NCBI GenBank assembly: GCA_018304465.1
Contig: JAGVWC010000010.1
Coordinates: 1-64,000 of the forward strand
Reading direction: 5' to 3'
Length of the DNA: 64,000 bases
From: Candidatus Iainarchaeum sp.
GTDB lineage: Archaea > Iainarchaeota > Iainarchaeia > Iainarchaeales > JAGVWC01
The notes under the pieces were generated by a model, which worked only from the letters and a program-made list of their open reading frames with translations, was not told the origin of the DNA and ran no database searches. Numbering within the stretch: the stretch's first letter is position 1; each line of letters starts with the position of its first letter. Made by a program: the position numbers and the translations under genes. Shown piece after piece: positions 45,472 through 63,983 of the stretch.

Positions 45472-48060
45472 TTAATCCGTAAACGCCGTCGCGGTCACGC
45501 CGCCATCCCAACTAAACCGCGGACGAATCTTAACCAACCACAACTTTTCCGTATTGTCATCCAAAATCAACGCATATCCTTTTCCGCGCGGCATTTCCTG
45601 GTACAACTTGTCAAAATCCGAATGCAAATACGTCGGACGAAGCTCCGACACCGCGGCAATATCCGATTGCGCCGTCATGCGATGACTGATAAACAAATCA
45701 CACTGCGAAATCGCGTCCGGATGAATCTTGTTCGGCCGCTGGGTCGCAAGCAACAACGACAACCCCGGCTGTCTTCCGACACGCACCCATTCCAACAACA
45801 CATCCAACGCGACATTTTGCTCGTCTTTGGGCATAAACATGTGGGCTTCGTCAATCAACATCCAAATCAACGGCATTTTCGATTCGCGACTGCCGCCTGC
45901 AATCAAATTCGCTTCTTCTTTTTTCCGATACAACATCCGTTCCTCGAACAGTTTTTTTCCGACCAACGCCACGATAATATCCCGCGGTCCTTCCATTCCA
46001 ATCGCCTGGCGATACGCGGACACATCAATAATCGTCACGACCCCCGGCTTTGCCAATTCGCTTAATTTTGTTCCGTCTTTTTCGAGTAGTCCCCAGGTTT
46101 TTGCGGCTCCGAGCCTTCCGATCAACGCGGACTTTGTCAAGGCATCCGATTCCGGATCTTGTCGCACCATTTTAATCATGTCATCAATGCCGTAATAGGT
46201 TCCCAGTTTTTCCTTGATGTCTTCCACCAACCGCGTCAACAACACGCCTTCGGGATCCTTCCAGGTTAATTTGAACAACGCCAACCATTCTACGCCCTCC
46301 AATTCACTGACTTTTAACGTGAACGCGCCGTCCACCGGAATCCCGTTTTTCTGATAAAACTCGAGTTTTCCCGCGGGCACCATCACGCGCACCGGAGAAG
46401 AATCCGGTTCCAAATCCCACGATTTCAACTCCGCTTTTTCGCGCGAATTCGGAATCTTTAACGTCCAAAAAATCCCCACGGTATCGATCGTGATCACGGA
46501 GATGCGGCTTTTGATATCCGCCATTTGCCGCGCGAACTCTTCAATGATGACGGACATCGTGTAACTGTTATGAACAATAATGTCATTGGCCACGAAATTG
46601 TGGTGCTCCGGCACCGAAATATCGAATACTTCGCACGGACCCGATAATACCCGCACAGACTTTATTTCGTCCCAGAAAATATCCGAATCCGCTAACTTTT
46701 CGATGATTTTGTTATGGTCTAACCGCGCGATCTGCAATAGTTTTAGCCGGGTTGGAGCGTAATGAATCGATTCGCGCAAGCTCTTTGGGAACGTTAATCC
46801 CATTTCTCGTCCGATTTTTGCCCAGGATTCCGGGCGGTATTGGTTCCAGATTTCTTTTGGGATCGTATCCGTGTTCGCATTGCGCTTGATTGACTTTATC
46901 TGTTCCAACGCTTCTTTTTGGCGGGTTTCCTTCTGTCCGAAAAACCCGATTTTTTTCAGGAAAAATTCGACATTGTTTCCTCGCAATTCCAACTCAAAAC
47001 TTGGAAAGACACGTCCTTCAAAAACAGTGTTCTTCTTTCGAAGCACTGAAAGGATCCCGAATCGATTCAACAGATGCTGAACCTGGCGGATTAATTGCTC
47101 CGAAACAGATGCGTACGCGATTCGCCAGGATTCGGTATTCGCATCGAAAAAGATTGTTCCGTCACAGCTGAACAGACGGTTTAGGAAAAGAGAAACTTTT
47201 TGTTCCGGCGACTTCAAGATCGAATCAGGAATAAATTTTGTATGCGAATTAACGTTGAATAGGCTCAATTCCTTCAGACGCTGTTTTAATCGATGCGGCT
47301 TTCGCGTCAGATCCATCTTGACAGGATAATCCCGGTTCTTTTTTGGTCTGAATCCCGCGACAACACGCAAACACGCGTTTGAAGCGACGGGTTCCACTCG
47401 AAGATTCGAGTCAAATTCCTTCAGAGCGTTTTCAAAATCACCCTGAATGGCTTCGTCGGTATTCGAAAACCACACGGCGTGCCGGGCCAAATGCCCTTCC
47501 GCGATCAAATACGCGAGGAGTTTCGTTTCCGCTTCAGAAACGAACTCGCTCCCAAAAAACGGCTGAATTCGCGGTGTTGCGATTCGAGAACCGATCGGAA
47601 GATCCTTGGCCGGAAACCAACCGCTAATCGTCAAAAGCGGATGCTCCGGAGTCAATTTGATCTTTTTTCCACTGTGCAATTCGATTTCAAGAAGTTCGTT
47701 AACAGTTCGGGAAAAAAATTCTGTTTTTTCCGATCCCACGATCTTGTAATCGGCATTCAATGAAGCCACTTTGTTTGATTCTTGTGCCAGTTCGCGGATC
47801 GGTTTTAGGGAACCGTCCGCCAATGGGATCAATGTATCTCCGTCCAGGCACTTTCCCCCACCGCGTTTTCCGCACACCAAAATCATATGCGGCTCGGCGA
47901 TGTCAATCAAGACTTTTCGTCCCAGCACGGGTGTTTGTCCGCCGCTCATCACGACTTTTCCGATGTACGCGGTCGCGCGTTCCCCGTACTTGGCAATCTT
48001 GCTTTCGCTTCGACCCAGAATCTGTATGCCTTCGCCCAAATTCACGTTTTCCATTGCCAT
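45472..48060 (-). CDS. herA: HerA-like DNA translocase/helicase precursor interrupted by an intein
   Basis: Exteins: ...ILVCGKRGGGK | SYTMSVIIEEFARQM...LIDEAHMFMPKDEQ...LATQRPNKIHPDAISQCDLFISHRM. Confidence 0.9.
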   Translation of the reverse strand: MAMENVNLGEGIQILGRSESKIAKYGERATAYIGKVVMSGGQTPVLGRKVLIDIAEPHMILVCGKRGGGKCLDGDTLIPLADGSLKPIRELAQESNKVASLNADYKIVGSEKTEFFSRTVNELLEIELHSGKKIKLTPEHPLLTISGWFPAKDLPIGSRIATPRIQPFFGSEFVSEAETKLLAYLIAEGHLARHAVWFSNTDEAIQGDFENALKEFDSNLRVEPVASNACLRVVAGFRPKKNRDYPVKMDLTRKPHRLKQRLKELSLFNVNSHTKFIPDSILKSPEQKVSLFLNRLFSCDGTIFFDANTESWRIAYASVSEQLIRQVQHLLNRFGILSVLRKKNTVFEGRVFPSFELELRGNNVEFFLKKIGFFGQKETRQKEALEQIKSIKRNANTDTIPKEIWNQYRPESWAKIGREMGLTFPKSLRESIHYAPTRLKLLQIARLDHNKIIEKLADSDIFWDEIKSVRVLSGPCEVFDISVPEHHNFVANDIIVHNSYTMSVIIEEFARQMADIKSRISVITIDTVGIFWTLKIPNSREKAELKSWDLEPDSSPVRVMVPAGKLEFYQKNGIPVDGAFTLKVSELEGVEWLALFKLTWKDPEGVLLTRLVEDIKEKLGTYYGIDDMIKMVRQDPESDALTKSALIGRLGAAKTWGLLEKDGTKLSELAKPGVVTIIDVSAYRQAIGMEGPRDIIVALVGKKLFEERMLYRKKEEANLIAGGSRESKMPLIWMLIDEAHMFMPKDEQNVALDVLLEWVRVGRQPGLSLLLATQRPNKIHPDAISQCDLFISHRMTAQSDIAAVSELRPTYLHSDFDKLYQEMPRGKGYALILDDNTEKLWLVKIRPRFSWDGGVTATAFTD
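46567..47850 (-). mobile_element. 428-aa intein with LAGLIDADG endonuclease inside the HerA P-loop
   Basis: Begins CLDGDTLI after GGGK; TPEHPLL block; LLAYLIAEGHL and LFLNRLFSCDGTI; ends CEVFDISVPEHHNFVANDIIVHN before +1 Ser. Confidence 0.92.
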
Positions 48061-54711: not shown

Positions 54712-56262
54712 TTGCATAAAAGAAGACCCCTCATGACAAAAATTACTAATGGAACCAAAGAAGGTTTCGAACAAAAAATGTGGACCGCCGCCGACAAAAT
54801 GCGAAACAACATGGACGCTGCCGAATACAAACATGTCGTCTTGGGCCTTATTTTCTTAAAATATATTTCTGATCGGTTTGAAGTCATACATAAAGAATTG
54901 TCCAAAGATCCTGAAGGCTTAGGGCCCGAAGAACGAGACGAATACATTTCCCGCAACGTATTTTGGGTTCCAAAAAAAGCACGTTGGGGCTATTTACAAG
55001 ACCGCGCCAAACAACCCGAAATCGGACAATTCCTCGACGATGCCATGGAACTTGTCGAAAAAGAAAACCCCACGCTAAAAGGCGTATTACCCAAAGATTA
55101 CGCTCGCCCTACACTCAACAAACGAAGACTTGGGGAACTCATCGACCTAATCGGAACCATCACACTGGGAGACGAAGAAAGCAACAAGAAAGACGTTTTA
55201 GGACAAGTATATGAGTATTTCTTGGGCCAATTCGCAGATGCAGAAGGAAAAAAAGGCGGCCAATTCTATACCCCGGCTAGCATTGTAAAACTCCTCGTTG
55301 AAATGATCGAACCCTACAAAGGCCGTGTATTCGATCCGTGCTGTGGAAGCGGAGGAATGTTCGTTCAAAGCGAAAAATTCATTTCCGAGCACCAAGGAAA
55401 AATTGACGAAGTATCCATTTACGGCCAAGAAAGCAACCCGACCACCTGGAAACTCTGCAAAATGAACTTGGCGATACGCGGAATCGACGGAAACATTTCG
55501 CTTGGAGATTCTTTTCACCAAGACCAACACAAAGACCTCAAAGCAGACTTTATTTTAGCCAATCCACCCTTCAATGTCTCCGACTGGAGCGGAGAAAGCC
55601 TACGCGACGATTCCCGCTGGAAATACGGAGTTCCACCAACCGGAAACGCCAATTTTGCATGGGTCCAACACTTTATTTCCCATTTGAGTCCCACCGGAAT
55701 CGCCGGATTCGTTCTCGCCAACGGTTCCATGTCATCTAACCAATCCGGCGAAGGCGAAATTCGAAAAAAAATCGTTCAAGAAGACCTAGTGGATTGCATG
55801 GTGGCACTTCCAAGCCAATTATTCTTCAACACCATGATCCCTGCCTGCTTATGGTTTGTGGCACGCGACAAAAAAAACAATAAACACCGCGACCGCCGCG
55901 GACAAGTACTATTCATTGACGCTCGCAAAATGGGGACCATGATTGATCGCCGCCACCGCGAACTCACCACTGAAGACATCCAAAAAATTGCTTCAACTTA
56001 TCACGCGTGGCGAAACAAAGATGGGAAACACCAAGACATCAAAGGATTCTGCAAGTCCATATCACTCAAAGAAATCGAAAAGCAAGGATTCATCCTAACC
56101 CCCGGACGATACGTTGGAACCGAAGAAATAGAAGACGACTGTGAACCCTTCGAAGAAAAAATGAAACGTCTCACGAACGAATTAAAAATGCAATTTGAAG
56201 AATCGAAACGTCTAGAAAAAGAAATTGAAAAAAATCTGAAGGGGATCGGTTTTGACTTTTAA
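54712..56262 (+). CDS. hsdM: Type I restriction-modification methyltransferase subunit
   Basis: [54 protein letters not shown] (NPPF). Confidence 0.97.
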
Positions 56263-56719
56263 CATTTTCATAAGTTACTCAACAAAGGATATCGAAACGG
56301 CTAAAAGACAGCAGAATTATTTTTCTCAAATTCAAGGAACGCGAGTTTTTCTATCTGAGTCAAGCCTGATTTTGGGTCAACTAAGTGATGTATTCATTAA
56401 CGAAATCAAAAAGTGTGATTTATTCATAGTCCTTTACAGTAAGAATTCTCAAAATTCGACTTATGTTCAACAAGAAATTGGTGTTGCGAAAGGAAACGGA
56501 AAACTTGTTATCCCCGTTCTGCTTGATGCTGAAGCAAAACCGGATGCAATGCTTCAAGGTATTAGTTATCTTTCAATTTACGATGAAGAAAAGCGCAACA
56601 CACAAATGCCTCGGTTATATCAGTACATCACACAAGAAACACAAAAGAAAGCAACTGGAGAAACACTTCTCTTTCTTGGAGCGCTTTATACACTATACTC
56701 TTTGTCGAGACACAGGTGA
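56252..56719 (+). CDS. TIR-domain protein
   Basis: [62 protein letters not shown] start overlaps hsdM, stop overlaps hsdS. Confidence 0.85.
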
Positions 56720-57978
56720 CTATAGTGCCCAAGTTTAAAGAAACGGAAAACGGAAAAATTCCCCCTGGCTGGGAAGTTACTATAATTAGTAATGCAATCG
56801 AAGTTAATCCCGAGAGAGCGCTAAAAAAAGGATCAAATGCAAAGTCAGTTGCAATGCAAGACTTAAAAGAGTTTAATAAAAAAATACAAAATTTTACAAT
56901 TAAATCCTTCAGAGGAGGTTCAAAATTCAAAAACGAGGACACTCTGATGGCTAGGATTACGCCTTGTTTAGAAAATGGTAAAACAGCATTCGTTGATATT
57001 CTTGAAAAAGAGGAAATCGGGTTTGGATCTACAGAATTTATAGTTCTATCCGGAAAACCAGAAAAAACAACAAATGAATTCGTCTTCTACTTATCTATTT
57101 CCCCAAAATTAAGAAGCGAAGCTATTCAATCAATGTCCGGTACATCCGGAAGACAAAGAATTCAAACCGATTTATTCAGGTCTAAGGAAATTGCGATACC
57201 AAAAATTTTCGAACAAAAGGCAGTCGTAAAAATTCTTTCAGATTTAGATTCTAAAATCGAATTGAACAATCAGACGAATCGTACGCTCGAACAAATTGCT
57301 CAAACTTTGTTCAAACATTGGTTTGTTGATTTTGAATTTCCAAACGTAGAAGGAAAACCATACAAATCCAGCGGCGGAAAAATGATTGAATCTGGGCTTG
57401 GATTGGTTCCCGAAGGGTGGAAAGTTCGATCATTGGATCAAATTGCTGATTTTCTCAATGGCCTTGCGTTACAAAAATATCCCCCTGCAGGAGAAGATTT
57501 TCTTCCAGTAATAAAAATTCGAGAATTGCGACAGGGAGTTACAGTGGATAGTGACAAAGCAGATATTTCCATTCCAGATGAATATATTGTTGAAGATGGA
57601 GATGTACTTTTTTCTTGGTCTGGCAGTTTAGAAGTGGTTATCTGGTGTGGCGGGCCTGGAGCATTAAATCAGCACTTATTTAAGATTACATCAAAAGAAT
57701 ACCCTAAATGGTTTTTTTATCAATGGACCAAATATCATTTAACCGAGTTTCAGCTTATCGCAGAGGGAAAAGCAACAACAATGGGGCACATACAACGCCA
57801 CCATTTAACCGAAGCAAAAATTTTGGTTCCACAACGGGCAATCTTAGAAAAAATTAATAAAATTATGGCCCCAAAATTCGAATTGCTTGTTAATAACAAA
57901 ATTGAAATTCGAAACTTGACACAGATTCGTGATTCTTTGCTTCCAAAACTAATGTCTGGAAAAATCCGAGTGAGTTGA
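56716..57978 (+). CDS. hsdS: Type I RM specificity subunit
   Basis: Two target-recognition halves separated by LDSKIELNNQTNRTLEQIAQTLFKHWFVDFEFP; ends SLLPKLMSGKIRV; GTGA overlap with the TIR gene. Confidence 0.95.
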   Translation: MTIVPKFKETENGKIPPGWEVTIISNAIEVNPERALKKGSNAKSVAMQDLKEFNKKIQNFTIKSFRGGSKFKNEDTLMARITPCLENGKTAFVDILEKEEIGFGSTEFIVLSGKPEKTTNEFVFYLSISPKLRSEAIQSMSGTSGRQRIQTDLFRSKEIAIPKIFEQKAVVKILSDLDSKIELNNQTNRTLEQIAQTLFKHWFVDFEFPNVEGKPYKSSGGKMIESGLGLVPEGWKVRSLDQIADFLNGLALQKYPPAGEDFLPVIKIRELRQGVTVDSDKADISIPDEYIVEDGDVLFSWSGSLEVVIWCGGPGALNQHLFKITSKEYPKWFFYQWTKYHLTEFQLIAEGKATTMGHIQRHHLTEAKILVPQRAILEKINKIMAPKFELLVNNKIEIRNLTQIRDSLLPKLMSGKIRVS

Positions 57979-57982
57979 TGTA

Positions 57983-60900
57983 ATGTCGTTTATTGTAGAA
58001 CAGGATATCGAAGAAGCCGCCTTGGACATTTTGAAGGAATTAGGGTACACGATCTATTATGGGCCATCTATTGCGGTGGATGGTGAAAATCCAAAAAGAA
58101 CGGCTCGAGACGACGTAGTGTTGAAAGAGCATTTAATCACCGCAGTCCGAAAGATAAACCCACCCTCAATTCCTACTGTGGCAATTGAAGAAGCTGTCAA
58201 AAAAGTAATGAGAACCACGAGTGCAAAAACAATTGTGGATAATGAACGATTCCACGAGTTTTTAGTAAATGGCGTTGAAGTCGAAATCCGAGTCAAAGAC
58301 CGAATAAAAGGAATCAGTGTAAAACTATTTGATTTTGAAAAACCTGAAAACAACGATTTTGTTGCGATTAATCAAGTTACAATCGTAGAAAATGGAAATA
58401 ACCGACGACCAGACATTCTCCTGTTTGTAAACGGTTTGCCCCTGGGTTTACTCGAGTTGAAAAATCCTGCTGCACCCAATGCAACCATTTATTCGGCTTT
58501 TGAACAAGTCCAAACGTATTTAGCCGAAATTCCAAGTGTCTTTACGTATAATGAATTTGTTATTTTGGCGGATGGAACCACCGCCAAAATCGGGTCAATC
58601 ACTTCGCCTTGGGAATGGTTTTTGCCCTGGAGAACCATCGACGGAAAAAGCCGCGCCCCAAAAACAATCCCTCAATTAGAAGTTGTATTGAAAGGAATGT
58701 GCAATCAAAAAGTCGTTTTAGACTTGGTCAAAAACTTTGTCGGATACCAAAAAACAAAAAAAGAAACCATCAAAGTCATCGGCGGTTATCACCAATATCA
58801 TGCCGCCAACAAAGCCGTGGAACGAACCGTCAAAGCGATTGGAGGATCAAAAAAAGCCGGTGTCGTTTGGCATACGCAAGGAACGGGAAAATCCCTGACC
58901 ATGGCTTTTTTTGTCGGAAAAATAACTCGCGATCCTCGAATGAGAAATCCTTCCATTGTTTTACTCACAGACCGAAACGATTTGGATGACCAATTGTTTA
59001 ATACTTTTTCAGATTATCGCCAGATATTTCGCGAAACCCCCAAAAAAATCAACAACCAGCCCGAACTAAAGGAAAGCTTGAAGATTTCATCGGGCGGAAT
59101 CTTTTTTACTACAATCCAAAAATTCTTAGACAAAAAAGAATCTTCTTTCGAGCTACTTTCAAAAAGAGACAATATTGTCGTTGTGGCCGATGAAGCCCAT
59201 CGAACGCAATATGGATTAAAAGGAAAAATCAGTAAAGATCAAAAATTACGATTTGGTTTTGCAAAATACTTAAGAGACGCGTTGCCGAATGCTTCTTTTC
59301 TTGGTTTTACTGGGACTCCGATTGATTTTGCCGATAAAAGTACTCGTGCGATTTTTGGGGATTACATTGACATTTATGACATGCATTCGGCAATTGAAGA
59401 TTGCCGCGTTGTTCGGATTTTTCACGAACCCAAACTGATTAAACTGGGAAAAAACGAGGATATTTTCAAAGAACTGGATCAAGACCTTGCGGATGTGACG
59501 GAATTTGAAGAACAAAACAACCGAGAATATCTAAAATCCAAGTGGAGCAAAGTAGAAGCATTGGTTGGAACAAAAACCAGGATTGAAACCATTGCCAATA
59601 CAATCGTAAAGCATTATGAATTACGCCAAGCCACGCAAAACGGAAAAGCATTGGTTGTTTGTATGAGCCGTCGAATTTGTGTGGACTTGCATGATCAAAT
59701 TAAGCGAATTCGACCCGAATGGTATCACACGGAAGATACTAAGGGACGGATAAAAATCATTATGACGGGTTCAGCTTCCGATGGAAAAGCTTGGCAAGAG
59801 CATATTCGCACCAAACAAAAAAGAAGAGAAATGGCAGAACTGTTTAAAGATTCTGATTCAGACTTCAAAATCGCTATTGTCAGAGATATGTGGTTAACCG
59901 GATTCGATGTTCCGGCATTAAATACCATGTATTTGGATAAACCCATTCGCCACCATAACCTTATGCAAGCCATTGCTCGCGTAAACCGCGTATACAAGGA
60001 CAAACAAGGCGGAATCGTGGTAGATTTTGTTGGGATTGCAGAAGAATTGAAGAAAGCCATTACTATTTACACACAAAGTGGCGGAAACGGAAGCCCCGCA
60101 TATGAAATCGAAGATGCAATCAAAGTAATGATGGAACGATACGAAGTTGTCAAATCAATCGTTGGCAAATTCGAATACGCAAAATTTTTTACCGGAACGC
60201 ATCAAGAAAAAATGCGCGTAATTCCGGGACTGATGGAACAGGTTCTTGGACAAGCAAAAGGAAAAGAACGTTTCATGAAAAACACCATTGCTCTGACGAG
60301 GGCATTTTCGTTGGCTTCCGCGACTCCGGAAGCCCAACAAATCCGAAACGATGTGGCGTTATTCCAAGCAATTACAAGTGCTTTTACAAAAACCGATACC
60401 ACTCAAGGCACGAGGTCCGATTTGATGGATACGGCCATCAAGCAACTGGTTTCCAAAGCAATCGAAGCCTACGGCGTAATCGATATTTATCGAGAACTCG
60501 GCGTGGAAAAACCAGAAATTTCAATTTTATCCGATAAGTTTCTAGATGAATTTCAAAAAATGGAATACAAAAACCTCGCATATGAAGCTTTGAAAAAATT
60601 GTTATATGAAGAAATTATCCTGCGATTTAAAACGAATAAAATAAAATCAAGAAAATTTTCGGAAATGCTCGAAGAAGCGATTCGAAAGTATACCAATCGA
60701 AGCATCGATTCCGCCCAAGTCGTCAAAGAACTCATCGAAATTGCTAAAGAAGTTCGAGAAGCCCAAAAACAAGGTGAAGAATTAGGTCTTTCAGAAGAAG
60801 AAGTCGCTTTTTACGATGCCTTGGCCAATAACGAAAGTGCGGTCGATTCATTAGGCGAAGAAATTCTGAAAAAAATTGCACGAGAATTAACCGATATGAT

Positions 60901-61090
60901 TAAGCAAAATACCTCTATTGATTGGAAATTCAGACAGAGTGTACGCGCCAAACTACGGCTCATGGTAAAAAAACTATTGAAAAAATATGGTTATCCTCCG
61001 GATAAAACTCAAATCGCAACAGATCTCGTGTTAGAACAAGCCGAAATTCTTTCCGATAAATGGGTAGATTTGCAGTACGCTACCGTGTGA
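57983..61090 (+). CDS. hsdR: Type I RM restriction subunit
   Basis: RPDILLFVNGLPLGLLELKNP (PD-ExK); WHTQGTGKSLTMAFF; VVADEAHRTQYG; 1035 aa. Confidence 0.97.
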   Translation: MSFIVEQDIEEAALDILKELGYTIYYGPSIAVDGENPKRTARDDVVLKEHLITAVRKINPPSIPTVAIEEAVKKVMRTTSAKTIVDNERFHEFLVNGVEVEIRVKDRIKGISVKLFDFEKPENNDFVAINQVTIVENGNNRRPDILLFVNGLPLGLLELKNPAAPNATIYSAFEQVQTYLAEIPSVFTYNEFVILADGTTAKIGSITSPWEWFLPWRTIDGKSRAPKTIPQLEVVLKGMCNQKVVLDLVKNFVGYQKTKKETIKVIGGYHQYHAANKAVERTVKAIGGSKKAGVVWHTQGTGKSLTMAFFVGKITRDPRMRNPSIVLLTDRNDLDDQLFNTFSDYRQIFRETPKKINNQPELKESLKISSGGIFFTTIQKFLDKKESSFELLSKRDNIVVVADEAHRTQYGLKGKISKDQKLRFGFAKYLRDALPNASFLGFTGTPIDFADKSTRAIFGDYIDIYDMHSAIEDCRVVRIFHEPKLIKLGKNEDIFKELDQDLADVTEFEEQNNREYLKSKWSKVEALVGTKTRIETIANTIVKHYELRQATQNGKALVVCMSRRICVDLHDQIKRIRPEWYHTEDTKGRIKIIMTGSASDGKAWQEHIRTKQKRREMAELFKDSDSDFKIAIVRDMWLTGFDVPALNTMYLDKPIRHHNLMQAIARVNRVYKDKQGGIVVDFVGIAEELKKAITIYTQSGGNGSPAYEIEDAIKVMMERYEVVKSIVGKFEYAKFFTGTHQEKMRVIPGLMEQVLGQAKGKERFMKNTIALTRAFSLASATPEAQQIRNDVALFQAITSAFTKTDTTQGTRSDLMDTAIKQLVSKAIEAYGVIDIYRELGVEKPEISILSDKFLDEFQKMEYKNLAYEALKKLLYEEIILRFKTNKIKSRKFSEMLEEAIRKYTNRSIDSAQVVKELIEIAKEVREAQKQGEELGLSEEEVAFYDALANNESAVDSLGEEILKKIARELTDMIKQNTSIDWKFRQSVRAKLRLMVKKLLKKYGYPPDKTQIATDLVLEQAEILSDKWVDLQYATV

Positions 61091-61094
61091 GAAC

Positions 61095-61481
61095 ATGAAA
61101 TACTGGCTGGTAAATCGCTCATGGGAATCGTTTAAACGAACCCAAGAGTTTTGCGGTTTTATTTCTGAGACAGAAAGAGATAAAATCATTGTTGGAGACA
61201 AAATAGTATACTTTGGAAACGGGATTGTTTTAGGGGTTTTCGAAGCAATCGCGTTACCCAACTTCGAGTTTAAGGGTTGGCAAAAGAACTATCCTTTTCA
61301 AGTTAAGTTAAAATTGCTCTCCATCTCAAAACGAGGATTGCTCGCCAAACCACTGGAAAGCAAGATTTTGATGCAAAAAAGCCAAGGCCAATCCCAAAAC
61401 CTGGTTGAACTCACCGAAAAAGAATTCCATCAAATAAAAGACGTGATAGATGCCAATGAAAAGGAGTTGATATTTAAATGA
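61095..61481 (+). CDS. EVE/PUA-like domain protein
   Basis: MKYWLVNRSWESFKRTQEFCGF...VGDKIVYFGNGIVLGVFEAIALP. Confidence 0.55.
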   Translation: MKYWLVNRSWESFKRTQEFCGFISETERDKIIVGDKIVYFGNGIVLGVFEAIALPNFEFKGWQKNYPFQVKLKLLSISKRGLLAKPLESKILMQKSQGQSQNLVELTEKEFHQIKDVIDANEKELIFK

Positions 61482-63092: not shown

Positions 63093-63983
63093 TTAAAAAC
63101 ATATCGATTTTTCGTATTGTTGCGGATAAAGGAAGTTTAGGATGATTTTGGCGGTTTTTGAAATTGCTTCGAAAAAATAAGTTAAATCTTTGGAAGGAAA
63201 CCCCAAAGGTGCCAGATATACCGAACTTTTAGAGTTTAAGCCAATGGCTCTGGTCACTACATAGCAAACGCTTTCCGCTTGAATTTCTTTTGCTCGCGTA
63301 GGCAAAGAAGAATACGGTAAGGAATAATGTAATAACTCATGGGCGATCTCATGAATAAGTGTACAGGTTTTCATATCGATGGATTGATCTTCTCCAATAA
63401 TGATTTTTCCACCGGCACTATAACCGTAAGCATTGTGTAAGCCCAATTTTTCGAATGACACTTTTATTTTTTGAAGTTCACAAAATTCAATTAACCGAAG
63501 GAATGTTGATTCATGAAATGAACTATTAATCACTGGAGACGCATCTAGCAAAGGAGCTCCACTGGTTTGAGAAATATCAAACACGGATACGGAATGAAAA
63601 TATACCCGTGTTTCTTCCTCTTCATTTCCAGTAGTTTCAGATGAGGTTAATTTTTTCTTAAACGGAGCGAGAATTTTAATAGCTTTTTCTCCTGCGTTTA
63701 CCTGGCGACCCAATGCGCACCAGGCCCGATACCCTGCCACGCGCGTTGCGGTTTCTTTTTGCGCTAAGATAAGCAACTGGTTGCGATAAGAGTAATTCCA
63801 AAAACGAGTCAACAGGTCCAAGTAGTTCTTGAATTTCTCAGATTGACGAACTGAATTCGTTTCTTGGGCCAAATCCTCCAAATACTGTTTTATTTTTGTA
63901 TCGAGGATAGAATTTTCATACTGTTGCATTCGAAGGAATATCTGCTGAGCTAAGAAGAATGTTTGTAGGCGCCGCATTGCCAC
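63093..63983 (-). CDS. ArdC-like protein with zincin metallopeptidase domain
   Basis: NYSYRNQLLILAQKETATRVAGYRAWCALGRQVNAGEKAIKILAPF; TLIHEIAHELLHY (HExxH). Confidence 0.85.
   Translation of the reverse strand: MAMRRLQTFFLAQQIFLRMQQYENSILDTKIKQYLEDLAQETNSVRQSEKFKNYLDLLTRFWNYSYRNQLLILAQKETATRVAGYRAWCALGRQVNAGEKAIKILAPFKKKLTSSETTGNEEEETRVYFHSVSVFDISQTSGAPLLDASPVINSSFHESTFLRLIEFCELQKIKVSFEKLGLHNAYGYSAGGKIIIGEDQSIDMKTCTLIHEIAHELLHYSLPYSSLPTRAKEIQAESVCYVVTRAIGLNSKSSVYLAPLGFPSKDLTYFFEAISKTAKIILNFLYPQQYEKSICF

Follow-up and report, generated by a model that had tools for sequence, protein, structure and literature searches.

We analyzed a 64,000-nucleotide window of the genome of the archaeon Candidatus Iainarchaeum sp. 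(contig JAGVWC010000010.1, positions 1 to 64,000), in which a Type I restriction-modification (RM) operon has a gene for a small TIR-domain protein placed between its hsdM and hsdS genes. The host is a DPANN archaeon, and its genome is a 1.25-Mb draft metagenome-assembled genome (MAG) of 15 contigs and 92% completeness, and the contig that carries the operon is 307 kb long. The operon is on the plus strand. Its hsdM gene, for the N6-adenine methyltransferase subunit (54736..56262; PF02384, E value = 1.1 × 10−114; PF12161, E value = 7.3 × 10−27), starts at ATG 54736 or at an alternative TTG at 54712 and stops with TAA at 56260-56262 in the open reading frame (ORF) map. Its product has the domains HsdM_N and N6_Mtase with the NPPF motif (Pfam) and is 75% identical to an HsdM from KSB1 and 71% identical to one from Candidatus Forterrea multitransposorum (below, Forterrea), a member of the same order. 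The TIR gene (56252..56719; 155 amino acids; PF13676) starts with TTG at 56252, overlapping hsdM by 11 nt, and stops with TGA at 56717-56719. The GTG start of hsdS, which encodes a specificity subunit with two recognition domains (56716..57978; PF01420 in two stretches; PADLOC Specificity_I), overlaps the TIR stop by 4 nt (GTGA). Then follows hsdR, for a Type I restriction subunit of the T1RH family (57983..61090; HSDR_N, SWI2_SNF2, and T1RH-like_C; PADLOC REase_I, 1,095 bits). The gene set is thus complete in one operon, with HsdM, an HsdS with two target recognition domains, and an HsdR with nuclease and SWI2/SNF2 motor (Pfam, PADLOC), and this content places it among the Type I RM systems, for which sequence-specific methylation and cleavage are predicted. 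An earlier note on this DNA had given the same coordinates for the hsdM/TIR/hsdS overlaps, all of which proved correct against the rechecked ORF map, and had described hsdM, hsdS, and hsdR as looking intact; all three match their own families far above the cutoffs.

The TIR assignment made in that note was borne out as well. The protein matches PF13676 (TIR_2) with 58.2 bits against a cutoff of 28 bits (E value = 1.5 × 10−15), with a weaker match to ThsB_TIR besides, and its gene is the only one in the host genome to match PF13676. Its TIR core (residues 5-114; 56264-56593) is followed by a stretch rich in helices and then by a hydrophobic segment at the C terminus (56663..56707; hydropathy of 1.43 over 15 residues), which may be a tail anchor or an oligomerization helix. 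A low-confidence AlphaFold2 model built from the single sequence (predicted local distance difference test score of 52) shows the beta/alpha order, and the top 15 Foldseek matches to it were all TIR domains (SARM1, BcTIR, ThsB, SPARTA, and plant TIRs), with template modeling scores of only 0.33 to 0.41. A profile of six archaeal relatives matched the TIR structures of TLR, Cat1, AbTIR, and SARM1 in a PDB profile search. The putative catalytic glutamate, Glu75 (codon at 56474..56476), is invariant in the six aligned archaeal TIRs and aligns with the Glu of the TLR and Cat1 TIRs, in keeping with the catalytic-type Glu that had been claimed; such a conserved Glu is required by all TIR enzymes examined (PMC10022894). 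The hydrophobic C terminus pointed out at the same time is likewise a real feature, shared with the archaeal TIRs of loci L124, L180, and L178, where its hydropathy is higher (2.70, 2.01, and 3.32, respectively).

Next, we looked at the hsdM-hsdS junction in 80 related operons found with HsdM, in 78 of which the junction could be classified. The gene directly after hsdM was hsdS in 58 of the 78 operons and a different gene in the other 20 (including L030, whose contig ends inside the cargo, and L008, which has no recognized hsdS). The cargo comprised DUF1016/YhcG nucleases (7 proteins), PIN_12 (5) and SLFN_AlbA_2 (2) proteins, pairs of a nucleotidyltransferase (MNT) with HepT, ParDE, HicA, Uma2, HEPN proteins, and proteins of no known kind. 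In the phylum of the host itself, all five HsdM-bearing loci had a gene other than hsdS after hsdM, two of the contigs ending before any hsdS: the TIR gene here, genes for two membrane proteins and a PIN protein in Forterrea, SduA_C in two loci, and a small ORF with a PIN gene in one. The Shedu-type SduA_C nucleases, from two genomes, stand straight after an HsdM of a different family (L143:633-1634 and L145:6942-7862). Cargo also followed hsdM in 7 of the 10 plasmid copies inspected (MNT-HEPN, VapBC, Uma2, and Fic). Mapping the junctions onto an HsdM tree with 80 rows gave at least 17 changes in the type of cargo and at least 10 in its presence or absence, and two loci with near-identical HsdM (L019 and L021) carried different cargo.

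Genes were also seen at other places in these operons. In Paenibacillus wynnii (L041:14088-16320), three genes lie just after hsdR; the TIR profile matches the second of them, and the third resembles ThsB by eye. The Forterrea locus (L142:3258-5141) has an AAA_15/OLD-like ATPase gene between hsdS and hsdR, in addition to its PIN cargo at the hsdM-hsdS junction.

The alignment of hsdM 3′ ends revealed a shared arrangement at the junction, which we call a socket: the codons for NLxGIGYEF-stop contain an AGGGGG-like Shine-Dalgarno sequence and an out-of-frame ATG or TTG, and an ORF that begins there overlaps hsdM by 11 nt. An in-frame start at this 11-nt position was available to hsdS in 49 of the 58 operons where it follows hsdM and to the cargo in 9 of 20. 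The socket here (56240..56254, plus strand) has AGGGG at 56240-56244, a 7-nt spacer, and an out-of-frame TTG at 56252-56254; the TIR gene starts exactly at this conserved position, while hsdS is coupled through the GTGA at the TIR stop instead. Because the socket start is used on one side and the TIR stop overlaps the hsdS GTG on the other, the sequence suggests that translation of the TIR gene is coupled to that of HsdM as well as HsdS. In another operon (L062:9433-10569), the cargo at the hsdM-hsdS junction is a DUF1016 gene whose 3′ end repeats the hsdM tail (ENLGGIGYEF) along with the Shine-Dalgarno sequence and start. There the socket looks recreated for hsdS, which would fit a duplication of the junction at insertion.

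Single-sequence searches with the TIR protein retrieved no relative from 87 genomes of the host's phylum, plasmids, phages, and viral contigs, and the alignment of six TIR sequences had no match among viral contigs. A family search of 371 genomes, from the phylum to which the Pacearchaeota locus L008 belongs, yielded one relative that is 58% identical over its full length, tail included (L117/L124), and a TIR subfamily profile gave one weak match among 380 genomes from the phylum that includes L043. The 58% relative, here called L124, belongs to another archaeal genome and is free-standing, with a PD-(D/E)XK-like gene downstream, and its contig of 8.9 kb is devoid of hsd genes. Its core is 67% and its tail 31% identical to those of the operon TIR. 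The identities between the two genes at the three codon positions (0.63, 0.76, and 0.41) show a pattern of purifying selection, and the TIR gene is not a relic. Since L124 and the more distant archaeal TIRs L180 and L178 share the hydrophobic tail, the small TIR with a tail is, as judged from these proteins, a type of effector that occurs in more than one context. The tail-bearing TIR of L180 lies in a defense locus, next to a Lamassu-type LmuB and the PADLOC candidate defense protein PDC-S46. The tail-bearing TIR at L187:3416-3955, whose neighbors are an ATPase of LmuB type and PDC-S46 (867 bits), may be the TIR effector of a Lamassu-like locus.

These observations can be combined into one explanation, to which we give about an even chance of being correct as a whole: a Type I RM operon carries an interchangeable TIR effector in a recurrent hsdM-hsdS slot, and the effector provides an abortive backup. 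The 3′ end of hsdM would supply the start, so that the TIR protein would be cotranslated with HsdM and HsdS, and it would be kept latent by them or near them, its tail possibly at the membrane. An infection or an antirestriction factor that perturbs the complex would then unleash the TIR, which, going by TIR biochemistry, would hydrolyze or cyclize NAD+ through Glu75. The outcome would be an abortive backup of the kind that PrrC provides for EcoprrI. By this analogy, the TIR is probably an NAD+-cleaving backup; stoichiometric coexpression and RM-triggered activation, both raised in the earlier note, are conjectures. The abortive role that was proposed there agrees with the example of PrrC and with the types of genes that relatives carry at the junction.

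Several results weigh against this explanation. A TIR gene stood at the hsdM-hsdS junction in 0 of the 80 homologous operons, where all matches to the TIR profile fell outside the hsdM-hsdR stretch, and none of the 81 segments around other TIR genes (some overlapping, and most extending about 1.5 kb to each side) had an hsd gene recognizable by the queries used. The TIR is thus a singleton in an otherwise common slot, and we rejected the idea that operons of this RM family regularly include one. Moreover, free-standing L124 shows that the protein can do without RM partners, its BB-loop region departs from that of the other archaeal TIRs (SESSLILG versus AHEDIPPG), and in this copy the tail has little length and only weak hydrophobicity. 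We identified neither an antitoxin nor an activator, and contact between the TIR and HsdM/HsdS is hypothetical. The earlier note had associated chance insertion with a gene that homologous operons almost never contain. That description holds for the TIR itself and fails for the slot, in which other cargo is found; because about a quarter of the homologous operons hold another effector-like gene there, pure chance insertion is disfavored.

The closest TIR relative being free-standing, a serious rival is that the TIR is a passenger, i.e., a self-sensing abortive-infection protein that sits in a permissive slot and takes from the operon only transcription and a translation start, with no link to RM. 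We hold this to be possible without favoring it. It agrees with the lack of hsd genes around L124, with the single occurrence of a TIR in the slot, and with the presence in the slot of complete toxin-antitoxin pairs, which are unrelated and do not depend on an RM enzyme. It also agrees with the G+C content at third codon positions (GC3), which is 0.30 for the TIR gene and 0.29 for hsdS, compared with 0.47 for hsdM, 0.37 for hsdR, and 0.46 for the window. Since the TIR gene and hsdS are both low in GC3 relative to hsdM, an acquisition of the two together downstream of hsdM would fit, as would a recent one. However, the exact coupling on both sides, repeated with other cargo, suggests selection for linked expression, and PrrC shows that embedding can be functional.

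That the TIR is nonenzymatic, a scaffold or regulator of HsdM/HsdS assembly or of restriction activity, would suit its position between hsdM and hsdS and its divergent BB-loop region, but in L124, which has no RM partner, few parts are as well conserved as the motif that holds the catalytic-type Glu, and the other cargo of the slot is mostly nucleases or toxins rather than regulators; we consider this improbable. A recent nonfunctional insertion or an assembly join is very improbable: it could draw on the single example, the compositional step from hsdM to the TIR gene, and the 15 contigs of the MAG, but the frame is intact with a codon pattern of purifying selection relative to L124, the hsdM-encoded start and the 4-nt stop/start overlap are used precisely, and the contig is 307 kb long.

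The RM-coupled effector explanation can be carried further. The 3′ end of hsdM might be a portable socket for effector exchange, with each effector a guard under methylase control and the TIR the first NADase to guard an RM system; in this wide form we regard it as rather unlikely. If the TIR is controlled by RM, the PrrC principle, in which failure of restriction leads to self-damage, extends from tRNA cleavage to NAD+ signaling and to archaea. A recurrent slot with a built-in start also gives a simple genomic rule for spotting further embedded effectors, and the many independent natural swaps make the hypothesis of immunity-suicide coupling, put forward by Makarova et al. in 2012 (PMC3506569), testable.

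Other genes lie close to the operon. The probable last gene of the operon (61095..61481, plus strand) encodes a 128-amino-acid protein (MKYWLVNHSWESF...) that we named EVE-like from the appearance of its sequence; no Pfam model matches it. Such a protein stands beside hsd genes in four loci of the host's phylum (window 61095-61481, L142:9962-10348, L144:4137-4523, and L145:4611-5090): the one beside hsdM in Forterrea (L142) is 44% identical to it, and those of L144 and L145 are similar ORFs beside hsdM. EVE proteins with archaeal Type I RM systems have been described (PMC7641849). On the minus strand, about 2 kb from the RM operon, 63093-63983 encodes a protein with an ArdC N-terminal (antirestriction) domain and an M78 peptidase (Pfam). 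Farther upstream, 45472-48060 (minus strand) holds an ORF that, by eye only, looks like a HerA-like ATPase with an apparent intein: CLDGDT... comes after the Walker A motif GKRGGGK, and the ATPase frame picks up again beyond ...IIVHN.

Type I RM operons with an embedded effector are an already known kind of arrangement, not a new class. We found no report of a TIR inside hsd operons, which is not proof of absence; the features that we did not find described are the TIR as cargo, the archaeal host, and the hsdM-encoded start that serves exchangeable cargo. Among the nearest known systems is EcoprrI/PrrC, where a stand-alone toxic effector gene likewise lies inside a Type I hsd operon and acts as a backup upon inhibition of restriction (PMC3874165): EcoprrI keeps PrrC inactive, and inhibition of EcoprrI by the T4 protein Stp frees it (PMC3874165, PMC3506569). 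PrrC is an ABC-ATPase with a HEPN tRNase (anticodon nuclease) in a Type IC operon, whereas the effector here is a 155-amino-acid TIR protein of an archaeon, encoded between hsdM and hsdS, and RM control has been demonstrated for PrrC, whereas for the operon TIR it is proposed by analogy. In the RRDM island of enteropathogenic Escherichia coli, the defense toxin system DarTG2 is nested in a Type I hsd operon at a proposed recombination hotspot (PMC12255303), but it occupies the hsdS-hsdR junction and comes with an antitoxin of its own, while here a single gene lies between hsdM and hsdS. The TIR domain also recalls ThsB of Thoeris, to which the operon TIR has weak PADLOC and Pfam matches; it differs in being embedded in RM, in its hydrophobic C-terminal tail, and in the lack of a ThsA-type SIR2_2 in the genome. 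We rejected Thoeris membership, as the genome has no SIR2_2 (the control was positive) and the operon no ThsA gene, though ThsA types other than SIR2 are not excluded genome-wide. The free-standing archaeal TIRs L124, L180, and L178 share the same small, tail-bearing architecture with the operon TIR, but they do not adjoin hsd genes.

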